Origin: Terrimicrobiaceae bacterium
GTDB lineage: Bacteria; Verrucomicrobiota; Verrucomicrobiia; Chthoniobacterales; JAATET01
Assembly: GCA_028713285.1 (NCBI GenBank)
Contig: JAQTOP010000034.1
Location: 1 to 32,774, forward strand
Reading direction: 5' to 3'
DNA length: 32,774 nucleotides
Of the stretch, positions 13,774 to 24,393 are shown in pieces (position 1 is the first letter of the stretch; every line of letters starts with the position of its first letter). The notes under the pieces were generated by a model. That model was not told the origin of the DNA. It worked only from the letters and a program-made list of their open reading frames with translations, and did no database searches. Both the position numbers and the translations under genes were made by a program.

Positions 13774-14010
13774 ATGGCAACCGCGGAATCCGTCACGTTC
13801 ACGACGAAGGGCCAGGTCGTCATCCCCGCGCGCCTGCGCCGGCAGTTCGAAATCAAGGCGGGCACGCAGGCGACCGTCGTCGCCACGCCCGACGGCATCC
13901 TGCTCAAGCCCATCACCCGCGCTTACATCCACAGCCTGTCCGGTTCATTGAAAGGCAAGGGCATCTTGAAATCGCTCACTGCCGACCGCCAGCGCGAACG
14001 GGATCTGTAG
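13774..14010 (+). CDS. vapB: AbrB/MazE-type antitoxin (VapB-like)
   Basis: This 78-residue protein opens with the SpoVT/AbrB swapped-hairpin DNA-binding domain: VTFTTKGQVVIPARLRRQFEIKAGTQ (two adjacent blocks), then VVATPDGILLKPIT. The charged C-terminal tail (about 48-78, ending TADRQRERDL) would wrap around and neutralise the toxin. The PIN toxin gene starts two bases downstream. As in other TA pairs, the protein complex probably represses the promoter at 13708-13736. Start ATG 13774 gives the canonical N-terminus. Confidence 0.9.
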   Translation: MATAESVTFTTKGQVVIPARLRRQFEIKAGTQATVVATPDGILLKPITRAYIHSLSGSLKGKGILKSLTADRQRERDL

Positions 14011-14012
14011 CC

Positions 14013-14420
14013 ATGGCGCGACGGATTCTGGACAGTTGGGCGCTCATCGCCTTCTTCGAGGACGAATATCCCGCCGTCACCGCAGCGGTCGCCGGGATGC
14101 TCGACTCCGCCTCAAGAGGAACCGACCAGCTCGCCATGAGCATCGTAAATTGGGGCGAGATTTATTACACCGTGATGCGGGAAGTCTCGCAGCAGTCCGC
14201 CGACGAGCACGCGGCAAAAATCGCCTCGCTCCCGATCGAACTCGTTCCCGCAGACCGGGCGCTCACCCAGCTCGCCGCGACATTCAAGGCCCGCCACCGC
14301 ATTTCCTATGCCGACGCCTTCGCCGCCGCGCTGGCAAAGGAGCGCAAGGCCGAAGTGGTCACCGGCGACCCGGAGTTCAAGGCGCTCAAAGGCGAAATCG
14401 CCATTCACTGGCTGAAATAG
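14013..14420 (+). CDS. vapC: PIN-domain ribonuclease toxin (VapC-like)
   Basis: This 135-residue PIN-domain protein has the metal-binding acidic residues in place: D7 (ILDSWALIAFFE), E49 (SIVNWGEIYY), D101 (ISYADAFAAALA) and D119 (VVTGDPEFKAL). Such toxins cleave tRNA or rRNA when freed from their antitoxin. The gene follows vapB with a two-base gap. No residue expected for activity is missing, so the pair looks intact. The target RNA cannot be told from sequence. Confidence 0.92.
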   Translation: MARRILDSWALIAFFEDEYPAVTAAVAGMLDSASRGTDQLAMSIVNWGEIYYTVMREVSQQSADEHAAKIASLPIELVPADRALTQLAATFKARHRISYADAFAAALAKERKAEVVTGDPEFKALKGEIAIHWLK

Positions 14421-16041: not shown

Positions 16042-16281
16042 ATGATGCACCGCATGCCCCTTCGCGACCGGACTCTTTCCGCTTTCGGTAGAAACGTCGC
16101 CAAACTCCGCTCCGACCGCGGCTTTTCTCAGGACAGACTTGCCGAAAAGTCAGACCTGGATCGGACCTACGTGAGCGGCATTGAGCGCGGTGTTCGGAAC
16201 CCGGGAATCAAGACAGTCCTGAAAATCGCGAAGGCTCTAAATGCCAGCCTTGACGACCTCTGCAAGGGAGTATCCGCGTGA
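16042..16281 (+). CDS. Small XRE regulator, controller-protein-like
   Basis: This 79-residue protein is essentially one Cro/C1-type HTH domain: AFGRNVAKLRSDRGFSQDRLAEKSDLDRTYVSGIERGVRNPGIKTVLKIAKALNASLDDL (adjacent blocks). The DRTYVSGIERG recognition region is close to that of many R-M controller proteins and of HTH proteins next to 5mC methyltransferases. Its stop overlaps the methyltransferase GTG by four bases, so the two are coupled and it probably controls the operon. ATG 16042, 16045 and 16054 are all possible starts. A small inverted repeat, CGTC-CACA-GACG (16011-16022), lies 19 bases before the start and is a weak operator candidate; the rest of the 182-base gap from 15860 shows nothing clear. 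Confidence 0.85.
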   Translation: MMHRMPLRDRTLSAFGRNVAKLRSDRGFSQDRLAEKSDLDRTYVSGIERGVRNPGIKTVLKIAKALNASLDDLCKGVSA

Positions 16282-17930
16282 CTCCCCCTCCAACATTCAT
16301 CGATCTATTTTGCGGTTGCGGAGGTTTCTCGCTCGGTATGGAGCGCGCGGGATTTCGTTGCATTGCGGCGGTCGATTTCAACGAGGAAGCCATCGCAACT
16401 TTCAAAGCCAACTTCCGCCGCGACATTCACGTAACGTGCAAGGATCTGTCCAAATATTCCCCCGCGAAACTGGCGGCGAAACTTGGAACGAATACTGTCG
16501 ACGTCATTGTCGGTGGCCCACCCTGTCAGGGATTCTCCACCGTGCGGCAAGCGGACTCCGCCAATCACGGCTCTCGTGTCCGCCGCGATAAACGCCGTTA
16601 TCTCTTTCGCATTTTTCTGGAATACGTTGCCGCATTCAGGCCGCGAATTTTCGTGATGGAGAATGTGCTTGGCATCCAGAGCGCAGCCAAGGGCAAGTTC
16701 TTCACCCTCGTCCAGTCGGAAGCCCGCGCGCTCGGATACCGCGTTCAAGCGCAGGTGGAGCAAGCCTGGCATCTTGGAGTGCCTCAAAAGCGCCGCCGCC
16801 AATTGATCATCGGCGTGCGCGCAGATATTCCCGGCTATTTCCCAAGCGAGCTCCGCCCTTCTTCCCGTGTAGGCGAGCATGTTTCCCCAACACTCTGGGA
16901 CGCAATCGGCGATCTTCCGCCCCTCTTTGCCGGCACAGGCATTGAGGAATGCGAATACGATCTCGCCCGCCGGGCTACAATTCTGAGCAGCCGGGGCGAG
17001 ATCGCCAGACACTATCTCGAAGACATTCTCGAAGTTTCAAAAGCGAAATCTCTTACGGCTCACCGCGCCCGCCCACACAGCGACCGTGATCTTCGGGATT
17101 TCAGTCTCCTACGGGAAGGCGAGCATTCCGGGGAAGCTGAGGCCCGGGGAGTGTCGATGGAATTTACCTACACCCGCACATGCTTTACTGACCGCTACAA
17201 ACGCCAGCATCGCGAGGATCAGTGTTCCACCATCGTTGCGCATCTGAGCAAGGATGGCTTGGGATTCATCCATCCAAACCAGCTACGCTCTCTCACTCCG
17301 CGTGAAGCGGCCCGTGTGCAAAGTTTTCCGGATTGGTTTAAGTTTCCGGTCGCTCGCACCCACCAATTTCGATTGATTGGCAACGCCGTGCCGCCACTTG
17401 TCGCCGAAGCTGTAGGCGAGGAGCTTAAAGCGTTTCTTGCCGGCGAAACAATCGAAGACAATTCGAGCCAATGGGGTGACGATGCATTTCCGCAGAGCGA
17501 GGCACAAGCTGTAGCATGGCTTAAGCCTTTGTTTGACCTTCCGCCCACAGCACTTCGGAAACTGGGCGACGAAACATTTAAACGGGCGTGGTCCGCAATC
17601 TCTTTTATATATGCAGGTTTGCATCCGGACGGCGCGCTCGATCACGGGGATGCAATCAGCCGCGATGGATTTGAAGATTATCCGCCTATAAGCGATTTGG
17701 AACCTCGTCTGCTAGCGCCCTACTACGAGCGCAGTGGATGGCCGGTAATTCTCGCCCCGATTGCTCGTGAGGCTTGGCGCCGCTTTCGAAATGAACAGTT
17801 AACCGATGAGGCGTTTTACTGCTGCGAAGCGCAGAAAGCGGGTATGAGCCATCGCGATCAAAAAAAACATCTCGTGTTGCGAGCAGTCTCGCATCAAGTG
17901 CTTCCCGCCCAACTACACCAAAACAACTAA
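16278..17930 (+). CDS. DNA (cytosine-5)-methyltransferase with C-terminal extension
   Basis: The 550-residue enzyme has all core C5-methyltransferase motifs in order: motif I FIDLFCGCGGFSLG (7-20), motif IV GGPPCQGFS with catalytic Cys83, motif VI ENV (129-131), motif VIII QKRRR (170-174), a target-recognition region about 190-335 (ARPHSDRDLRDF, STIVAHLSKDGLGFIHP), motif IX LTPREAARVQSFPDWF and motif X GNAVPP (368-373). The catalytic part ends near 390; about 160 extra residues follow, helical in look and of no family I recognise. It transfers methyl from SAM to C5 of cytosine in a target that cannot be read from sequence. GTG 16278 overlaps the regulator stop. Base composition is less GC-rich than the flanks. 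Confidence 0.95.
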   Translation: MTPPPTFIDLFCGCGGFSLGMERAGFRCIAAVDFNEEAIATFKANFRRDIHVTCKDLSKYSPAKLAAKLGTNTVDVIVGGPPCQGFSTVRQADSANHGSRVRRDKRRYLFRIFLEYVAAFRPRIFVMENVLGIQSAAKGKFFTLVQSEARALGYRVQAQVEQAWHLGVPQKRRRQLIIGVRADIPGYFPSELRPSSRVGEHVSPTLWDAIGDLPPLFAGTGIEECEYDLARRATILSSRGEIARHYLEDILEVSKAKSLTAHRARPHSDRDLRDFSLLREGEHSGEAEARGVSMEFTYTRTCFTDRYKRQHREDQCSTIVAHLSKDGLGFIHPNQLRSLTPREAARVQSFPDWFKFPVARTHQFRLIGNAVPPLVAEAVGEELKAFLAGETIEDNSSQWGDDAFPQSEAQAVAWLKPLFDLPPTALRKLGDETFKRAWSAISFIYAGLHPDGALDHGDAISRDGFEDYPPISDLEPRLLAPYYERSGWPVILAPIAREAWRRFRNEQLTDEAFYCCEAQKAGMSHRDQKKHLVLRAVSHQVLPAQLHQNN

Positions 17931-17932
17931 AT

Positions 17933-19777
17933 ATGGAACTGAGCTTCCCTCCTCTCAGTGGCGGAACAGTCAGCGGATTAAATGACGCAGGCATAGAGAC
18001 CTTTGAAGGAGACTTCGCGAGGAACGTCGTCCGTGAGTGTGCGCAAAACTCGTTGGACGCAGCGCCGAATCCTAGTGGCCACGTCGTCGTGCGCATCCAG
18101 CGGGCTTCATTGGAGCCACGCGAACTACCGTTCATTCCCGCACTGCGCGACATCCTCCGTGCCTGTCGCGATTACTGGAGCCAGCATGGAAAAGCGGCGC
18201 GGTTCTTTGAGGCGGCGATGGCTTCGGTAGGCCATGCGCACATTGACGCCTTGCGAATCTCAGATTTTGGCACGACTGGCGTCGATGGTTCAGACGAGGA
18301 CAACACAGGCCGTTGGTTTGGTTTGGTAAAATCACGCGGGGTCTCGAATCAGAAAGGCGCGGAAAGCGGTGGGGCATTTGGTATCGGCAAAGATGCGCCG
18401 TTAGCGGGATCGGCGGTTCGCACCGTTTTGTATTCGACCCGGACAATCAAAGGAGACGTTGCCCTCCAAGGTGTATGTCGGCTTGTAACCCACGAAGGCC
18501 AAAACGGTGAACTCACACAGGGAACGGGTTTCATTGGTGAGTTCGATCCTCGGAACAAAGTTTACCGCGCAATTCGCGATGCCAACTCGATCCCCGATCG
18601 GTTTCTGCGAACGGAGCCGGGTCTCGACGTATGGATTCTTTGCTCGCGGCATTTGGACAATAATTGGGCTCAACCTTTCATCCGGTCAGCCTTGGCGAAC
18701 TTCTGGCCTGCAATTGCTGACGGAAAAATCACCTTTCAGATCGGTGACGAAACCATCGACACCTCGTCCCTCGGTGCAGCCATGCGAGCGGAAAGATCCG
18801 ATGATCACGTCGCTGAAGCATGGCCTTTCTATCAGGCGTTGGTCGATCAGCACGCCAAGGCTTTTTCAAAAAAGCTTCCGACGGCAGGCGACTGCCGCCT
18901 TCACCTTTTGCTTGCTCGGCGCGATCTACCGAAACGGATATGCATGGTGCGGCGGACAGGCATGGTCATTGAAACTTATGCACCACGAGTCGGTTTCCTT
19001 CCGTTTGCCGGCCTTTTTATCTGCGAAGGACACGACGGAAACCGATTACTTCGGTCGCTTGAGCCCCCGCGACACGATAGGTGGGATGCAGAACGCTCCG
19101 AAGGACCTAATGCAGCAACAGCACTAAAGGAAATCAAAGATTGGATTCGTGATGTTCTGAAGAAACAAACGCCACATGCTGGTGAGGACCAGTTCAACGA
19201 ATCCGAGGTGCCCGCGGATTTGCTTGAGGACGTGCCCGAAAACCCAATCACCGATCCAAGTTCCGAAAGCGAACCGGACCTCGGCGGCAATCCCAAGGAT
19301 GCATCACCATCCGAAAAGGTAAAAGTGCGAACCCGAACGATGCGGAAGACGACGGAGCCCGGCAAGAAAGACACCGAAAGCGGCGACGACGACGTTGATG
19401 CCCCCAAGAAAGGTGACGACAAATCAACGGGGGGACGTAAAGGACGACAAGGAGAAAACTCGGGCGATTCGTCCGTCGCCCCGAAGGTTCCGTCGCTCTT
19501 TACACGCGCATTCTGCCCGTCCGACAGTCAAGATGCGGTCGAATTGGTTTTGCGGTCGGATGGCGATTACGAGGGAAATATTTGGATCGAAGGACTGGGA
19601 GACGATGGGGCGGCGGAAAATCTTGTCTTGGAATCGGCTGAAATTGTGGGGATCGGACCAGCCGAGGTCGAGCAAAGCAAAATCAAGAACGTAACGCTCA
19701 CCACAGGCCAAGCCGTTCGCGTCCGTGTGTTCCTCAAACAACCCGGCAAATACGCCGTCCGCGCAACTCTCTCATGA
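17933..19777 (+). CDS. GHKL ATPase, MutL/MORC-like
   Basis: This 614-residue protein carries a Bergerat-fold ATP site near its N-terminus. N box: VVRECAQNSLDA (E35, N39). G1: RISDFGTTG (D111-G116). G2: ESGGAFGIGKDAPLAG (GGAFGIGK at 146-153), followed by VRTVLYSTRT. This arrangement fits MutL/MORC/Hsp90-type ATPases rather than histidine kinases. A middle region runs to about 400. About 405-520 is a charged, low-complexity linker (EPDLGG, TRTMRKTTEPGKKD, DDKSTGGRKGRQG), and 521-614 look like a small beta domain. It starts two bases after the methyltransferase stop and overlaps the next gene by four bases. MORC/MutL homologues with methyltransferases and Vsr nucleases have been predicted to act in restriction-type systems; that role is inferred here. 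Confidence 0.85.
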   Translation: MELSFPPLSGGTVSGLNDAGIETFEGDFARNVVRECAQNSLDAAPNPSGHVVVRIQRASLEPRELPFIPALRDILRACRDYWSQHGKAARFFEAAMASVGHAHIDALRISDFGTTGVDGSDEDNTGRWFGLVKSRGVSNQKGAESGGAFGIGKDAPLAGSAVRTVLYSTRTIKGDVALQGVCRLVTHEGQNGELTQGTGFIGEFDPRNKVYRAIRDANSIPDRFLRTEPGLDVWILCSRHLDNNWAQPFIRSALANFWPAIADGKITFQIGDETIDTSSLGAAMRAERSDDHVAEAWPFYQALVDQHAKAFSKKLPTAGDCRLHLLLARRDLPKRICMVRRTGMVIETYAPRVGFLPFAGLFICEGHDGNRLLRSLEPPRHDRWDAERSEGPNAATALKEIKDWIRDVLKKQTPHAGEDQFNESEVPADLLEDVPENPITDPSSESEPDLGGNPKDASPSEKVKVRTRTMRKTTEPGKKDTESGDDDVDAPKKGDDKSTGGRKGRQGENSGDSSVAPKVPSLFTRAFCPSDSQDAVELVLRSDGDYEGNIWIEGLGDDGAAENLVLESAEIVGIGPAEVEQSKIKNVTLTTGQAVRVRVFLKQPGKYAVRATLS

Positions 19778-20637
19778 ACTTCAACCGTATGAGATCGTGG
19801 CCGCATCCGGTCGTCTCGCCCTTGTGCGATGATGTCGCACCCAATGCCTTCGATTTCCGACTGGATGTTCTTCCTGAACACCACCGGTGGATTCTCGGAG
19901 TGGAAGTCACGGCGGAGGACGCGACGCTTGCCAACTACGTCCAAGCCGGAAAGGCGTGCTATCTCTTGCATGTGGAGTGCAAGCGGACCAACTACCGCGG
20001 AACCCTCGTGAGCAGCACATTGCGGTTCGAGATGTCGATTGGTGGCGATCTGCTGTTTGGTCTAGTCGAGGTGTCACTTCTCGTTGTCGCAAAGAAGGAC
20101 TTGGAAGGATATCGGCATCCCGGCCAGCACGCGGACTATCGCAATAGCGCGTTCGACATCAATCCCGGCGAGCCGCTGGCGGTGGCCGCGAGCAAAACCT
20201 TTGACGCATTCCTTGAAGTGGACCCAATCCTCAAGTTGTCCTCGATACTCGACATCAAACGAGGCGAGGATGACCTCCGTCGAATGCAGGTGAGTTGCTT
20301 CGGAGATCGTATTCTTATTGAGCTGCCATTGGCAGAGTTTGATCGCTATAGGGAGTTGCGTGCTGATCCTCCGATCCGTGGCCTTTTGGCGACGACGGTC
20401 GTCCTGCCGGCCCTGCTGGATGCGTTCTTTTACCTCCGCACTCCCGACCTTGATCTCGATGAATTCAAGGCGAACCATCGTTGGTGTCGATGCGTGCTGA
20501 ACAGGCTGGAGCGACTAAAGGTCGATCTCGTCAACCCGAATGCCGAGAGCGGCATATGCCTCGAGGCGGCCCAGATGCTTTTACGTGAGCCGCTGCAGCG
20601 CGGTCTGGAAGACTTAAGTCAACTTTACAAGACATGA
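19774..20637 (+). CDS. Unrecognised protein of the methyltransferase-GHKL-Vsr operon
   Basis: I do not recognise this 287-residue protein. The N-terminal 160 residues look all-beta: WILGVEVTAEDATLANYV, ACYLLHVECKRTNYRGTLVSS, LRFEMSIGGDLLFGLVEVSLLVVAKKDLEGY (alternating hydrophobic strands). The C-terminal part is helical, with IRGLLATTVVLPALLDAFFYLR, FKANHRWCRCVLNRLERLKVD and a Leu-rich end. VECKR could be read as the E-x-K half of a PD-(D/E)XK nuclease, but no convincing partner Asp motif is seen, so I do not claim nuclease activity. There is no signal peptide or membrane anchor. Overlaps of four bases on both sides (ATGA) tie it to the GHKL gene and to the DUF6339-like gene, so it is a component of the same system. 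Confidence 0.8.
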   Translation: MNFNRMRSWPHPVVSPLCDDVAPNAFDFRLDVLPEHHRWILGVEVTAEDATLANYVQAGKACYLLHVECKRTNYRGTLVSSTLRFEMSIGGDLLFGLVEVSLLVVAKKDLEGYRHPGQHADYRNSAFDINPGEPLAVAASKTFDAFLEVDPILKLSSILDIKRGEDDLRRMQVSCFGDRILIELPLAEFDRYRELRADPPIRGLLATTVVLPALLDAFFYLRTPDLDLDEFKANHRWCRCVLNRLERLKVDLVNPNAESGICLEAAQMLLREPLQRGLEDLSQLYKT

Positions 20638-21395
20638 GCCTCGAATTCCTGTCTCGCGAAGCGACCGACAAACTCGCACACGAAGTCGGCACGAACATCG
20701 AAGCTTACCGCGCAGAAAAGACGGTTGACCTGATTCGAACGGGCGACTGTCGGATGTCGCGCGTCGACGCCGTAGCACCACCTGATTTGCTCGATACAAA
20801 AGGTGATTACAAACCCGACGCCGAGGCTTCCCAGCTCATTTTTCAATGGCTCTCGAACCTCACACCAGTGCAGGCGGCGGATGAACGCCTATGGGTTCTT
20901 CTCACTCATTCGACGTTTTCCGAATATGTCCACAAACGCTGGGGCGACAGCTTGGAACGCTCAGAGAAGCCAACGGAACTTATCTTGGATCGTTGGTTTT
21001 TCCGTGGGATCGGCCTTCGCAGACTTTTCCACAATGGTATTTCCCGTTTGTGGTGGTTCGGCTGGGTAACCCACGACAACCAGCGTGCAAACCCGTTCGA
21101 GCTGACCGATGCGCTACTCTCATTACAGGAAATCCAAGTGGCGTTCTTGGAGCGCTCTATTGGGAGCTGCAAGCCGCTCCTTCGCGTAGTGCTTGAAACG
21201 GTAAAAAAGCATGAGGCAGCGCTCCGCTCCACCCCGAAAAGGGGTGACGTTATCCAAGGGTGGGCCAAAGAAATCCGTCTCTACGGAGGTGCGTATTTGC
21301 TTGATGCTGTGCCGCCGGACCGGCTGGCGTTCGTCGTGGAACGGATGCTGCGTTCGCGATTAAAAGTCCCCGCCGCTATCGCGTCAGATGCCTGA
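20634..21395 (+). CDS. DUF6339-like protein
   Basis: This 253-residue soluble protein resembles, from memory, the DUF6339 family, which often sits next to Vsr and C5-methyltransferase genes. The central core is the recognisable part: ERLWVLLTHSTFSEYVHKRW, then RWFFRGIGLRRLFHNGISRLWWFGWVTHD, then NPFELTDALLSLQEIQVAFLERS (each as adjacent blocks). The rest is helical, with a Trp/Arg-rich centre that could bind nucleic acid or protein. No catalytic motif is visible and no function is known to me. It overlaps the unknown gene upstream by four bases and vsr downstream by eight. Confidence 0.75.
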   Translation: MSLEFLSREATDKLAHEVGTNIEAYRAEKTVDLIRTGDCRMSRVDAVAPPDLLDTKGDYKPDAEASQLIFQWLSNLTPVQAADERLWVLLTHSTFSEYVHKRWGDSLERSEKPTELILDRWFFRGIGLRRLFHNGISRLWWFGWVTHDNQRANPFELTDALLSLQEIQVAFLERSIGSCKPLLRVVLETVKKHEAALRSTPKRGDVIQGWAKEIRLYGGAYLLDAVPPDRLAFVVERMLRSRLKVPAAIASDA

Positions 21396-21807
21396 CGTCT
21401 TCAGTCCCGAGAAGCGCAGCGCGGTCATGGCGCTCGTTCGCGGGAAGGGAAACAAAGATACAGAACTGCGGCTGATCGCGTTGTTTCGTGCGCACGGCAT
21501 CACTGGCTGGCGGCGGAATCACAAACTACCCGGCAAGCCGGACTTCGTTTTCCGAACGCAGCGCATCGCGGTCTTTGTCGATGGATGTTTCTGGCACGGC
21601 TGCCCGAAGCCGAAACATGCGCCGCTCCCGAAAACCCGCGCGGAGTGGTGGGCAACGAAGCTGGCCCGAAACAAGGCTCGCGACCGCGAGGTGAACCGGC
21701 TCCTGCGCAAGGCCGGCTGGCGGGTGATCCGGGTGTGGGAATGCGAACTCACGCGGGCGAATGCGCCGCGCGCCGTCCGGCGGATTCAAAAGGCGCTGGA
21801 TGGCTGA
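21388..21807 (+). CDS. vsr: Vsr-type (very short patch repair) endonuclease
   Basis: This 139-residue nuclease has the full Vsr pattern: RSAVMALVRGKGNKDTELRL (E26), LPGKPDFVF with the catalytic Asp (D52), IAVFVDGCFWHGCPKP with the zinc-linked Cys/His set, and the closing GWRVIRVWECEL. Classical Vsr nicks DNA at T:G mismatches that arise when 5-methylcytosine deaminates, protecting methylated sites from mutation. As the last gene of an operon that has a 5mC methyltransferase but no obvious restriction enzyme, it could instead be the nuclease of the system. It overlaps the DUF6339-like gene by eight bases. Its 3' 100 bases recur in decayed form at 22618-22720. Confidence 0.93.
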   Translation: MPDVFSPEKRSAVMALVRGKGNKDTELRLIALFRAHGITGWRRNHKLPGKPDFVFRTQRIAVFVDGCFWHGCPKPKHAPLPKTRAEWWATKLARNKARDREVNRLLRKAGWRVIRVWECELTRANAPRAVRRIQKALDG

Positions 21808-21997: not shown

Positions 21998-22243
21998 TCA
22001 CGCCGCGACGGCGGCAGGGGCGTCGTGCAGACGAATCAGCCCGGCCACGGGGATGGGCAGCAACGCGAAGGCGCGCCCCCTGGCATCGGAAAACTCCACC
22101 TCGAAGGCGGAGCCGTCGTAGGTCATCACAACGGTGCCGATCTGGCCGCGGGGAAGCGTGAGCGGGGCGCCTGTCACGAAATCGCGCGCCGGCACTTCCT
22201 GCAGCAGCGCCACGAGATCGTGCATCTGGATTTCCGTTTTCAC
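21998..22243 (-). CDS. DUF4926 family protein, copy 1
   Basis: This 81-residue protein matches the small beta-barrel-like DUF4926 family: MHDLVALLQEVPARDFVTGAP, then PRGQIGTVVMTYDGSAFEVEFSDARGRAFALLPIP (adjacent blocks). The pattern G-x-x-G-T-V, a strand ending EVEF, and GR-x-x-ALL are the recognisable marks. It is the downstream partner of a DUF6883 gene, four bases away on the same strand. Such pairs recur in accessory regions and have the format of a toxin-antitoxin or immunity pair, but no activity is known to me. Confidence 0.72.
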   Translation of the reverse strand: MKTEIQMHDLVALLQEVPARDFVTGAPLTLPRGQIGTVVMTYDGSAFEVEFSDARGRAFALLPIPVAGLIRLHDAPAAVAA

Positions 22244-22247
22244 AGCG

Positions 22248-22580
22248 TCACACGATATAGCAGGTCGTCAGCCGTGGAAAGTCTTCTCCGTGCCGGACAA
22301 TCCATGCCGTAAGAACCACCGCACTGCCAGCCGCGGTTTGCATGGGAAAGCGCATCACAAGGACTTCGCCGAAACCGTTGTCGCCACGAGATTCCACATC
22401 GTCCGAGGCAATTGCGGCCTCCGGCACGGCGCGGCGAAGCACGTCCATATTTTCGGAGGCGATCCCCAACGCGGAGAGAAAGACGCGCGCCTTGTGCCGG
22501 CCCTCGAAATGGCGGGCATTCAGCGAATAGTCTTCGAGCTTGTTGCCGATATCCGCGCAAACTGCGTTGGGCAGTTTCAT
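22248..22580 (-). CDS. DUF6883 family protein, copy 1
   Basis: This 110-residue protein fits the DUF6883 family: MKLPNAVCADIGNKLEDYSLN, GRHKARVFLSALGIASEN, a middle VLVMRFPMQTAAGSAVVLTAWIVRHGEDFPRL, and the terminal TCYIV. The ending T-A-W-I-V with a following P-R-L-T-T-C-Y is the strongest mark. The start codon at 22580 lies inside a 75-base block that is almost identical in front of the second DUF6883 gene, although the two proteins have little in common beyond the family pattern. Function unknown; it pairs with the DUF4926 gene four bases downstream. Confidence 0.72.
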   Translation of the reverse strand: MKLPNAVCADIGNKLEDYSLNARHFEGRHKARVFLSALGIASENMDVLRRAVPEAAIASDDVESRGDNGFGEVLVMRFPMQTAAGSAVVLTAWIVRHGEDFPRLTTCYIV

Positions 22581-22644
22581 GGGGACATTTCATTACCCTG
22601 CCCATGGGGCAGGTCGAGCCCTGGGCAAGGCGGGCGGTTGATCC
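22570..22644. repeat. 75-bp block shared by both DUF6883 modules, copy A
   Basis: This block matches 23506-23580 at 73 of 75 positions with no gaps. It spans the first bases of the DUF6883 gene (minus strand) and its upstream region, so it should hold the promoter and leader of the module. Within it CTGCCC-ATG-GGGCAG forms a hairpin in this copy only; one of the two substitutions in copy B breaks that stem. The right half (from about 22618) is itself a decayed relative of the vsr 3' end. Confidence 0.85.
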
Positions 22645-22720
22645 GTGTGGGGGAATGCGATCTCATGCGGGCGAACGCGCCGCGCGCCGTCCGGCGGATT
22701 TAAAAGACGCTGGTAGCTGA
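22618..22720 (+). pseudogene. Decayed 3' end of a vsr gene
   Basis: About 100 bases align with the last 108 bases of vsr (21700-21807), including the stop region. From GAATGCGA onward the two differ at roughly six of 68 positions, plus small indels. The reading frame is broken by frameshifts, and no upstream vsr sequence remains. The similarity continues past the stop into the inverted-repeat element (CGATTCGG-TCTCACGCGAAG here). This is a duplicated vsr tail plus repeat element. A shorter relative, with about 70 bases deleted, lies at about 23554-23600. Confidence 0.75.
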
Positions 22721-22770
22721 CGATTCGGTCTCACGCGAAGGCGCGATGCCGCGGAGAAGATGCTAAGGGA

Positions 22771-22933
22771 CTCACGCAGAGACGCAGAGACGCAGAGGCG
22801 CGGAGCCCATGCGGAATGGACGAAGAGATTTTGAATCTGGAACTCAGAAAATCGGGAACGAAATCTCAGCCTCACAGAATCCTCCCGGCGGATCGGAAAA
22901 CTTCCTTCTGCGAACTCCGCGCCTCTGCGTGAG
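22771..22933. repeat. Inverted-repeat element, copy 2
   Basis: The left arm (22771-22805) begins CTCACGCAGAGACGCAGAG and holds extra tandem GACGCAGA units before ending GGCGCGGAG. The right arm CTCCGCGCCTCTGCGTGAG (22915-22933) is identical to that of copy 1. The upstream flank with TCTCACGCGAAGGCGCGATG (22730-22749) and the inner segment GGATCGGAAAACTTCCTTCT are shared with copy 4, which shows these are members of one family rather than chance hairpins. With the vsr remnant it fills the 358 bases between the two DUF modules. Confidence 0.8.
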
Positions 22934-22938
22934 CCGCA

Positions 22939-23184
22939 CTATGCCGCGGTTGCGAGGCGCCGCACGCTGAATACCTCGTTGGAAAGGAGGGATGCCAGCG
23001 AAGATTCCGGCACAGAGGTCACCGCGATGGTGTCGCCGAGGGCATTGAATACCTCGATGGAATAACCATCCTCGCCACCCGGCACCGGGTGGTGATCCAC
23101 GATCTTCACGACATCTCCGGCGCACAGCCCATCGCCGGGGATGTCCCGTGTGAGCGCAGCATCGATGTAGAGTTGGAACTTCAT
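22939..23184 (-). CDS. DUF4926 family protein, copy 2
   Basis: This 81-residue protein is a second, strongly diverged DUF4926 member: AALTRDIPGDGLCAGDVVKIVDHH (adjacent blocks), then EDGYSIEVFNALGDTIAVTSVPESSL. Compared with copy 1 the shared features are the D-I/V-P start, the G-D-V-V or G-T-V-V turn, the strand before EVF/EVEF, and the final hydrophobic strand. Its start overlaps the stop of the second DUF6883 gene by four bases, so the two are translationally coupled. Function unknown. Confidence 0.72.
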   Translation of the reverse strand: MKFQLYIDAALTRDIPGDGLCAGDVVKIVDHHPVPGGEDGYSIEVFNALGDTIAVTSVPESSLASLLSNEVFSVRRLATAA

Positions 23185-23516
23185 TCGGGCAACGTCTTTT
23201 CCGGGATCAACGTAACAAACTTCGTCCGTTGCGACAAATGTTCCGTCATCCAGATGGTTCGAATCCGCAGGGTCCGGCCATTCGGCCCCGTGAGCAGGGA
23301 TCGGATCTGATGATATTGTCCATACTCTGTGCGGTGTAGTTCTTCGGCGTCGCCGGGCAAAACCTGCCCCCGAAGGTCTTCCAATAGCTGATCAGCTTGG
23401 TTGAGGTCGTAACCGGCTTTGGCCAAAAAGCGGGATTTGTCGCCCTGGGCGAGCGGAACAAGCAGGTAATGCGTGAGTTTGCGCCGTGCAATAATGGCGT
23501 CCGCCGGCAGTTTCAT
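23181..23516 (-). CDS. DUF6883 family protein, copy 2
   Basis: This 111-residue protein fits the other common DUF6883 subgroup: MKLPADAIIARRKLTHYLLV, GDKSRFLAKAGYDLNQADQL, HRTEYGQYHQIRSLLTGPNG and RIRTIWMTEHLSQRTKFVTL. Apart from the first four residues (MKLP) it shares little direct identity with copy 1, yet the upstream 75 bases are nearly the same in both. That contrast points to exchange of the coding payload behind a constant leader, or to much stronger change in the protein than in the leader. Function unknown. Confidence 0.75.
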   Translation of the reverse strand: MKLPADAIIARRKLTHYLLVPLAQGDKSRFLAKAGYDLNQADQLLEDLRGQVLPGDAEELHRTEYGQYHQIRSLLTGPNGRTLRIRTIWMTEHLSQRTKFVTLIPEKTLPE

Positions 23517-23580
23517 GGGGACATTTCATTACCCTGACCATGGGGCAAGTCGAGCCCTGGGCAAGGCGGGCGGTTGATCC
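23506..23580. repeat. 75-bp block shared by both DUF6883 modules, copy B
   Basis: This is the second copy of the block described at 22570-22644, again covering the DUF6883 start and leader on the minus strand. Immediately to its right the vsr-like tail is shortened: after GTTGATCC the sequence jumps to TGGTGACTGGCGATTCGG, which matches the end of the decayed vsr copy plus the repeat flank. So copies A and B descend from one arrangement, with a deletion of about 70 bases in B. Confidence 0.85.
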
Positions 23581-23600
23581 TTGGTGACTGGCGATTCGGC

Positions 23601-23826: not shown

Positions 23827-24393
23827 TCAGTTCGCCTTTGCGTGGATTTTTTCATAGCTTTTGGCTTCGAGCACGCGGGCATGACCTTGATGCCATTCTA
23901 CCAATAGCGCAGGCGGCTGCAAGGCGGCATCGTAGAGCAGGGTTTCGTCCGCAAGCGGAAGATAGAGCTGGAAGAAGTTTCGCACGCTGGGCAGGAAGCG
24001 GCGTTTCAAATCCGGCAGCGGCACGTCGTGGCCGCCTTTGCGCACGCGTTCCCGCACACGGCGCACCGAGAGCTGCACCGAGTCGAGAGCGAGGTAGCAG
24101 AGGCGAATGGAATAACCCCGGGCCTTCGCCTCGCGGAGCATCGCCGCGTAGGTGCGCCCGCTGATCGTGGACTCGAACGCGAAGTCGTCACCGCATTCGA
24201 CCAATTCCTTCCAGCGCGTCAGCAACAGGCGCGCTGCGCGAAGGCGTCCGGCGGGTGGATCGAGAGGCGACAGTCCGGCTGCAATGGAGTCGGCATTGAG
24301 GAATTCGCGGATGCCCGCCGCGGGTAGAAATTGCCGTGCAAAGGTCGTCTTTCCGGCGCCGTTCGGTCCGGCGATCACGTAGAGCGCAGGCAT
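23827..24393 (-). CDS. Zeta-toxin-like P-loop kinase
   Basis: This 188-residue protein begins MPALYVIAGPNGAGKTTFARQFLP with Walker A at 9-16. It continues with FLNADSIAAGLSPLDP, DDFAFESTISGRTYAAML, IRLCYLALDSVQLSVRRVRERV, RKGGHDVPLPDLKRRFLPSV and ends with DETLLYDA and EKIHAKAN. These blocks are characteristic of the zeta-toxin/AAA family found in bacterial TA loci, where zeta phosphorylates UDP-sugars and blocks cell-wall synthesis. Start ATG 24393 is chosen because it gives exactly the family N-terminus; the frame continues upstream only as noise. No intact antitoxin gene is adjacent. It lies between repeat elements 3 and 4. Confidence 0.85.
   Translation of the reverse strand: MPALYVIAGPNGAGKTTFARQFLPAAGIREFLNADSIAAGLSPLDPPAGRLRAARLLLTRWKELVECGDDFAFESTISGRTYAAMLREAKARGYSIRLCYLALDSVQLSVRRVRERVRKGGHDVPLPDLKRRFLPSVRNFFQLYLPLADETLLYDAALQPPALLVEWHQGHARVLEAKSYEKIHAKAN

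Follow-up and report, generated by a model that had tools for sequence, protein, structure and literature searches.

A six-gene operon around a paraMORC2-like ATPase

The window analysed here, a stretch of 32,774 nucleotides (contig JAQTOP010000034.1, GenBank assembly GCA_028713285.1) from a Terrimicrobiaceae bacterium of the phylum Verrucomicrobiota, carries a compact operon for a helix-turn-helix (HTH) regulator, a C5-cytosine DNA methyltransferase, a GHKL ATPase (A), two partner proteins (B and C) and the very-short-patch-repair endonuclease Vsr (Table 1). An open reading frame (ORF) check placed all six genes on the forward strand exactly where the initial annotation, made from the sequence alone, had put them. 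Along the operon the junctions are a 4-base overlap (HTH and methyltransferase genes), a 2-base gap and overlaps of 4, 4 and 8 bases. The arrangement goes beyond chance, as A-B-C recurs in 89 loci. The profile searches that had been proposed bore out the HTH_3, DNA_methylase, DUF6339 and Vsr assignments, and PADLOC named the three middle genes: they match PDC-M33A, B and C, one candidate phage defence system already catalogued in PADLOC-DB 2.0. As had been noted before, the operon has no conventional restriction enzyme; none was recognised in it by Pfam or PADLOC, or among ten further window proteins by PADLOC, and the same holds for helicases. Altogether, the operon is a coherent variant of the catalogued candidate, and the methylase, the optional Vsr and a small gene D that occurs elsewhere lie outside the A/B/C catalogue entry.

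A was called a GHKL ATPase because of its motifs, which are intact (E35 and N39 of the N box, D111-T114-G116, G147-G150-G152). Of 93 core relatives, 92-93 retain each of these residues; so do 10/10 proteins of a sister family described below, except for D111 (8/10). The residues of E377-x3-H381-x2-W384 were likewise found in 92, 93 and 89 of the 93 core proteins, respectively, and in all ten sister proteins. An ExxxH signature of this kind defines paraMORC2 in Iyer, Abhiman and Aravind (2008; PMC2292703), who predicted that restriction loci of bacteria included MORC-like ATPases as ancestral components. The signature, kept in A and its relatives, agrees with the earlier proposal of a MORC-like ATPase tied to restriction-modification loci; judged by position only, it may fall in an S5 domain. 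No family was matched by A in Pfam (E<=1) or NCBIfam, MORC and other GHKL families included, and A was therefore not filed as MORC proper; it is probably of the paraMORC2 type. When A was compared with profiles of solved structures, the sole match was a weak one to Mlh1 (E=0.82).

B matched no family above chance in Pfam or NCBIfam, the similarities to PQQ_syn and Cas11 (E about 0.1 and 0.014) being at chance level. Its AlphaFold2 model (mean predicted local distance difference test score, pLDDT, 93; predicted template modelling score 0.68) has two parts, an Ig/FN3-like beta sandwich and then a tail of helices, and Foldseek matches were generic beta-sandwich domains only, with template modelling scores <0.3 on the query. 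The conserved patch H66-E68-T72-R75 (91-98%) is a candidate binding or active site; S157 and W237 are also conserved. The model of C (pLDDT 90.5) is all helical, without a PDB or BFVD match below E=0.3, and W87, E84, R85, R102, W140 and W141 are strongly conserved. No known nuclease fold was found among the structural matches of these confident models, and no PD-(D/E)xK, HNH or GIY-YIG motif was recognised in the alignments. The hidden nuclease that the initial annotation had suspected thus gained no support from the models of the two proteins; a nuclease of a new kind is weighed below as an unlikely rival explanation. In some loci M33C is longer (330-520 aa) owing to extra C-terminal sequence, which in L096, the example examined, matches no Pfam family and is a possible attached effector.

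The methyltransferase has a complete set of catalytic motifs (DLFCG, PPCQ, ENV, QKRRR, IGNAVPP) and a C-terminal extension of ~160 aa. In PADLOC it scored well on the DISARM and Druantia profiles DrmMII (5.7e-77) and DruM (2.4e-77), but plain type II methylase profiles scored higher (1.2e-90). With DISARM class 2 (DrmA, DrmB, DrmC and DrmMII) the similarity is confined to the methylase; the scanned proteins included no core gene of DISARM or Druantia. The profile of the HTH gene resembles control (C) proteins of restriction-modification systems. When a C-protein operator was sought just upstream of it, only short palindromes and no inverted repeat longer than 6 bases were seen.

In Vsr the catalytic and zinc positions are kept (E26, D52, H70, C67, C72, C119); it aligns to E. 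coli Vsr (1cw0) at 3.4e-20 with E26, D52 and H70 aligned. Members of this family are mismatch nickases that repair the T:G mismatches arising from deaminated 5-methylcytosine. MutL is encoded in the genome, which rules out A as a stand-in for a missing MutL partner of Vsr; MutH was not found in the genome.

Conservation and neighbours of A-B-C

A single-protein scan of genome contigs with A gave no relative. An 11-sequence alignment of relatives was too diverse, and a 4-sequence alignment was used in its place. Scanning 84,980 species genomes yielded 80 further loci; loci from plasmids, phage records, viral contigs and the same phylum were included as well. The choice of seed favours Bacillota, so locus frequencies are not census figures. 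A, B and C were all present, adjacent and in that order in 89/89 core loci, from Bacillota, Actinomycetota, Deinococcota, Pseudomonadota, Spirochaetota and other phyla, and the four further A genes without B or C each lie at a contig end. In the plasmid collection 24 records hold a relative of A, and every DUF6339 and B match was on a record that also holds A. Over 66 loci, A, B and C show correlated pairwise distances (0.88-0.90), whereas the correlation between A and the nearest C5-methylase was 0.49 (34 loci). A-B-C is therefore one evolutionary unit, and the methylase is a looser partner. Homologues of the four downstream genes occurring mostly apart had been named beforehand as evidence against a common system. 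For the ATPase, B and C the opposite was found, as they are inseparable; for Vsr, absent from 76 of 87 loci, separation is indeed the common state.

Neighbours were counted in 87 non-redundant A-B-C loci with 6-kb flanks. A C5-methylase was present in 45 of them, although only 50/96 same-phylum genomes hold any such gene, at about 1 per genome. By chance such a neighbour is expected in about 0.5% of loci, and a rough binomial estimate lies far below 1e-50; the association with C5-methyltransferases claimed earlier is thus a strong one. N6-methylases were found in 5/87 loci. Vsr occurred in 11/45 loci with a C5-methylase and in 0/42 without one (Fisher p = 0.0005, with some dependence among the loci). 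Vsr thus goes with the methylase, as expected from its role in T:G repair, and looks like the repair companion of the methylase rather than the missing cutter; a second role may be compatible with its intact active site.

A protein of ~1000 aa accompanies A-B-C in 19/87 loci, usually directly downstream of C and mostly within ~25 bases. It shows helix-hairpin-helix repeats like those of the RNA polymerase alpha C-terminal domain, a zinc-ribbon-like start or a segment like sigma-70 region 4, and its distances track those of A (r=0.87, 14 loci). Directly upstream of A, 48/93 core and two sister loci have the small gene D (~76 aa, KFxRLAExRxNKxIxxIxLLGNxSN), which matched no Pfam family, is not among the PADLOC M33A/B/C models and could be detected neither in the window nor elsewhere in its genome. 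Few M33 loci showed a helicase. The description of this operon as a minimal variant lacking a helicase is accordingly misleading; what the locus lacks, set against about half of its relatives, is gene D.

Other neighbours of A-B-C include AlwI-type, MutH/Sau3AI, GmrSD and HNH nucleases and AbiG. Operons that join A-B-C to a methylase without a recognised restriction enzyme were found in L026, L117 and L120, and in the sister family in L027, L028, L029, L035 and L040. In two betaproteobacterial islands (L103, L120) a methylase, Vsr, a second methylase and A-B-C follow on one strand behind a probable integrase, and the island of L120 (Burkholderia multivorans) apparently adjoins guaA. In Selenomonadales (L067, L068, L088, L102, L108, L109) A-B-C is flanked by queA and tgt, and no modification gene was recognised there; this position is a fixed insertion site for a stand-alone form of the module.

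Ten weaker matches of A, from the same phylum and from archaeal and cyanobacterial plasmids, were compared with the core family. Several of these sister loci have the order A'-B'-C'-C5-methylase with or without Vsr (L027, L028, L029, L032, L035, L040), and in L036 the methylase is on the other strand. The small proteins are of ~255-345 and 225-285 aa, and the B' and C' proteins examined had no match in PADLOC or Pfam. C' and C are probably of common descent (hhalign probability 58%, E=1e-4). Divergent B' proteins showed no detectable kinship with B; the B proteins of L028, L039 and L040 aligned to it weakly (probability 25%). The plan of a paraMORC2 with two small partners, a C5-methylase and an optional Vsr, without a recognised restriction enzyme, therefore recurs, and the sister family may be an uncatalogued defence system.

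Table 1. Positions of the operon genes and of other features in the window; entries with an L number are positions in loci of other genomes
Feature	Position	Strand	Evidence or remark
Six-gene operon	16042-21807	+	ORF check
HTH regulator, 79 aa	16042..16281	+	HTH_3 3e-15; best PADLOC match Control_protein PDLC03665 6e-17
C5-cytosine DNA methyltransferase, 550 aa	16278..17930	+	GTG start; DNA_methylase 1.5e-64; dcm 195.7 bits (cut-off 100.65)
A, putative paraMORC2-type GHKL ATPase, 614 aa	17933..19777	+	PDC-M33A 8.5e-125
B, Ig/FN3-like beta sandwich then helices, 287 aa	19774..20637	+	PDC-M33B 6.2e-55; AlphaFold2
C, all-helical DUF6339 protein, 253 aa	20634..21395	+	DUF6339 2.1e-44; PDC-M33C 9e-47
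Vsr endonuclease, 139 aa	21388..21807	+	TIGR00632 117.7 bits (cut-off 97.85)
~1000-aa protein, examples	L100:4800-8357; L060, L064, L071, L104, L115, others		
Gene D, examples	L074:6206-6433; L020:7735-7962; L125:7720-7938		
Long M33C	L096:3673-5220; L052, L055, L067, L101, L121, L123		330-520 aa
Betaproteobacterial islands	L103:6040-13509; L120:4781-12094		
MazE/AbrB-PIN toxin-antitoxin pair	13774-14420		
PIN genes upstream of sister A	L028:9695-10105; L031:8271-8681; perhaps L029:9366-9851		
Two tandem DUF4926-DUF6883 gene pairs	21998-23516	-	
vsr 3' end and its repeat	21715-21799; 22629-22713		914 bases downstream, 89%
78-base stretch and its repeat	22570-22647; 23506-23583		after 936 bases, 96%
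Dispersed repeat CTCACGCAGAG(g/a)CGC...	21850, 22771, 23601, 24490	+	
Dispersed repeat, other strand	21982, 22923, 24605	-	
Zeta-toxin-like P-loop kinase gene	23830-24390	-	Zeta_toxin 1.8e-08

A possible methylation-guarded clamp and its alternatives

The open-access literature was searched for PDC-M33 and its parts. No paper naming or testing PDC-M33, or naming DUF6339, was found there, and no named, tested system equal to it; likewise, no worked-out mechanism was found in the literature for bacterial relatives of paraMORC2. The operon shares with the catalogued PDC-M33 the presence, adjacency and usual order of A, B and C with whole-length profile matches. It differs in that the HTH and C5-methylase genes immediately precede the module and vsr immediately follows it, all within a single overlapping transcription unit, and in the missing gene D. 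With the paraMORC2 loci of PMC2292703 it has in common the intact GHKL motifs, an ExxxH in the C-terminal part and C5-methylase and Vsr neighbours. The superfamily II helicases and restriction-fold nucleases stressed as partners in the available part of that paper are absent here, the operon being without a Pfam helicase, and B, C and D are not described in that part. A type II restriction-modification system with Vsr would share the complete-motif C5-methylase, the intact-site Vsr and the C-protein-like regulator, but here the cognate restriction endonuclease is replaced by the ATPase and by two proteins whose folds do not resemble nucleases. The Shedu protein VcSduA of Vibrio cholerae, for which anti-phage defence was shown by experiment, also has a GHKL ATPase; unlike M33, with three proteins, no recognised nuclease and, here, a methylase, it is one protein with its own Shedu nuclease domain (PMC12137116).

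The gene identities are well supported, whereas defence, discrimination by methylation and clamp action without cutting are what we infer as the mechanism. As the best explanation we tentatively propose, by analogy and with a probability of about 0.42, a laterally acquired PDC-M33 module joined to a C5-methylase, Vsr and HTH regulator, which would act as a methylation-guarded, ATP-gated clamp, possibly without cleavage. The methyltransferase would mark host DNA, and A, B and C would assemble as an ATP-gated dimeric clamp that marked host DNA keeps off or discharges. On unmarked incoming DNA the clamp would close, trap or compact the DNA and block its use, like eukaryotic MORCs, which silence genes by compacting DNA. 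Vsr would repair the T:G mismatches from deaminated 5-methylcytosine and so keep methylated sites from mutating, and the HTH gene would time expression as C proteins do. We favour a clamp because A-B-C holds no recognisable cutter and, in many loci, none was recognised among its neighbours either.

As precedents, MORC2 is an ATPase described as a DNA compaction machine (PMC12216690), and, according to PMC8277788, the C. elegans protein MORC-1 both traps DNA topologically and condenses it. Immunity entirely without a cutter, in which the paraMORC2 and its two partners would read the 5-methylcytosine pattern and silence or topologically trap unmarked invading DNA, is a rather doubtful proposition; if true, it would be a prokaryotic counterpart of MORC-based transposon silencing. 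Because the operon packs a paraMORC2 and one methylase, but no restriction enzyme, into six compact genes, both the distinction of self from non-self by methylation and the need to cut are directly testable.

Several points weigh against the guarded clamp. Its action is modelled on the wider family by analogy, and the literature yielded no experiment with any M33 system. No C5- or N6-methylase, Vsr or ~1000-aa protein was recognised within 6 kb in 33/87 loci, some of which have short flanks and in which other restriction-modification types may be missed. Because of these bare loci and the six Selenomonadales loci beside the housekeeping genes queA and tgt, a methylation guard cannot be universal. 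In other clusters a recognisable nuclease is present, namely HNH (L043), MutH/Sau3AI (L022) or GmrSD (L048), and a new nuclease could reside in C or at the H/E/T/R patch of B. Such a nuclease is the main rival explanation: A-B-C would then make up the restriction component of a restriction-modification system that depends on ATP. Nucleases have repeatedly come to light in restriction-modification loci where none had been recognised, and the conserved patch of B, the conserved residues of the all-helical C and the enrichment of C5-methylases beside A-B-C are consistent with this. We nevertheless regard it as unlikely, given that no Pfam nuclease matched, no nuclease of note appeared among the structural matches and none of the three nuclease motifs looked for was recognised in the alignments.

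Next in rank, and distinctly unlikely, is a second-line or abortive role, in which A-B-C would keep watch over the resident modification systems and halt the cell once these are overcome, without reading DNA marks itself. The mixed company of A-B-C (C5-methylase with Vsr, a Dam pair with an AlwI-type enzyme, N6-methylases, a type III-like set, MutH/Sau3AI, GmrSD) and the loose correlation between A and the methylase would suit such a guard. On the other hand, here and in several relatives A-B-C is apparently co-transcribed with a single methylase and has no restriction enzyme to watch, and no toxin-like domain was recognised.

The initial annotation had also considered Vsr as the cutter. A-B-C would in that case detect DNA without the mark and bring in or activate Vsr to cleave it, much as MutL stimulates Vsr in E. 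coli. The last place of vsr in the operon, its 8-base overlap with C and its retained active-site residues agree with this, as do the orders A-B-C-methylase-Vsr (L028) and methylase-Vsr-methylase-A-B-C (L103, L120); paraMORCs are grouped with Vsr-type nucleases by Iyer et al. (PMC2292703). Still, the presence of Vsr in only 11 loci, each time beside a C5-methylase, is what a mutation-avoidance partner would show, and the genome has its own MutL; Vsr as effector is therefore not favoured, ranks below the guard module and appears improbable. Least credible of all is that A-B-C has no part in defence and instead serves mobile DNA in regulation or maintenance, travelling with modification genes. 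The plasmid-borne relatives of A, the integrases next to the module in L023 and L042, the probable integrase near guaA in L120 and the small proteins that precede A in many loci point in that direction, but the repeated placement among restriction and abortive-infection genes and the entry as a defence candidate in PADLOC-DB speak against it.

Origin and surroundings of the operon

At 16-21 kb the GC content is only 0.54-0.58, against 0.65-0.70 over most of the flanks. The same-genus genome G314 holds no A, and toxin-antitoxin-like genes lie on both sides of the operon. Together, these features suit a defence island gained by lateral transfer. No clean empty site could be seen in G314, whose left flank is different and in which pntB was not detected.

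About 1.6 kb upstream of the operon lies a MazE/AbrB-PIN toxin-antitoxin pair. Very similar PIN genes stand directly upstream of the sister A genes of L028 and L031, and perhaps of L029, which suggests that the pairing of PIN with paraMORC2 is repeated in the phylum. Downstream, on the opposite strand, there are two tandem DUF4926-DUF6883 gene pairs, of which the second seems to stem from a duplication of ~0.9 kb. The 3' end of vsr and a 78-base stretch are each repeated further downstream, and the region behind the operon has therefore grown by duplication. The dispersed repeat, perhaps a REP-like (repetitive extragenic palindromic) or cassette-like element, is arranged in several places as inverted pairs that flank small genes behind the operon. 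The Zeta-toxin-like P-loop kinase gene is a further toxin-like gene of the island.

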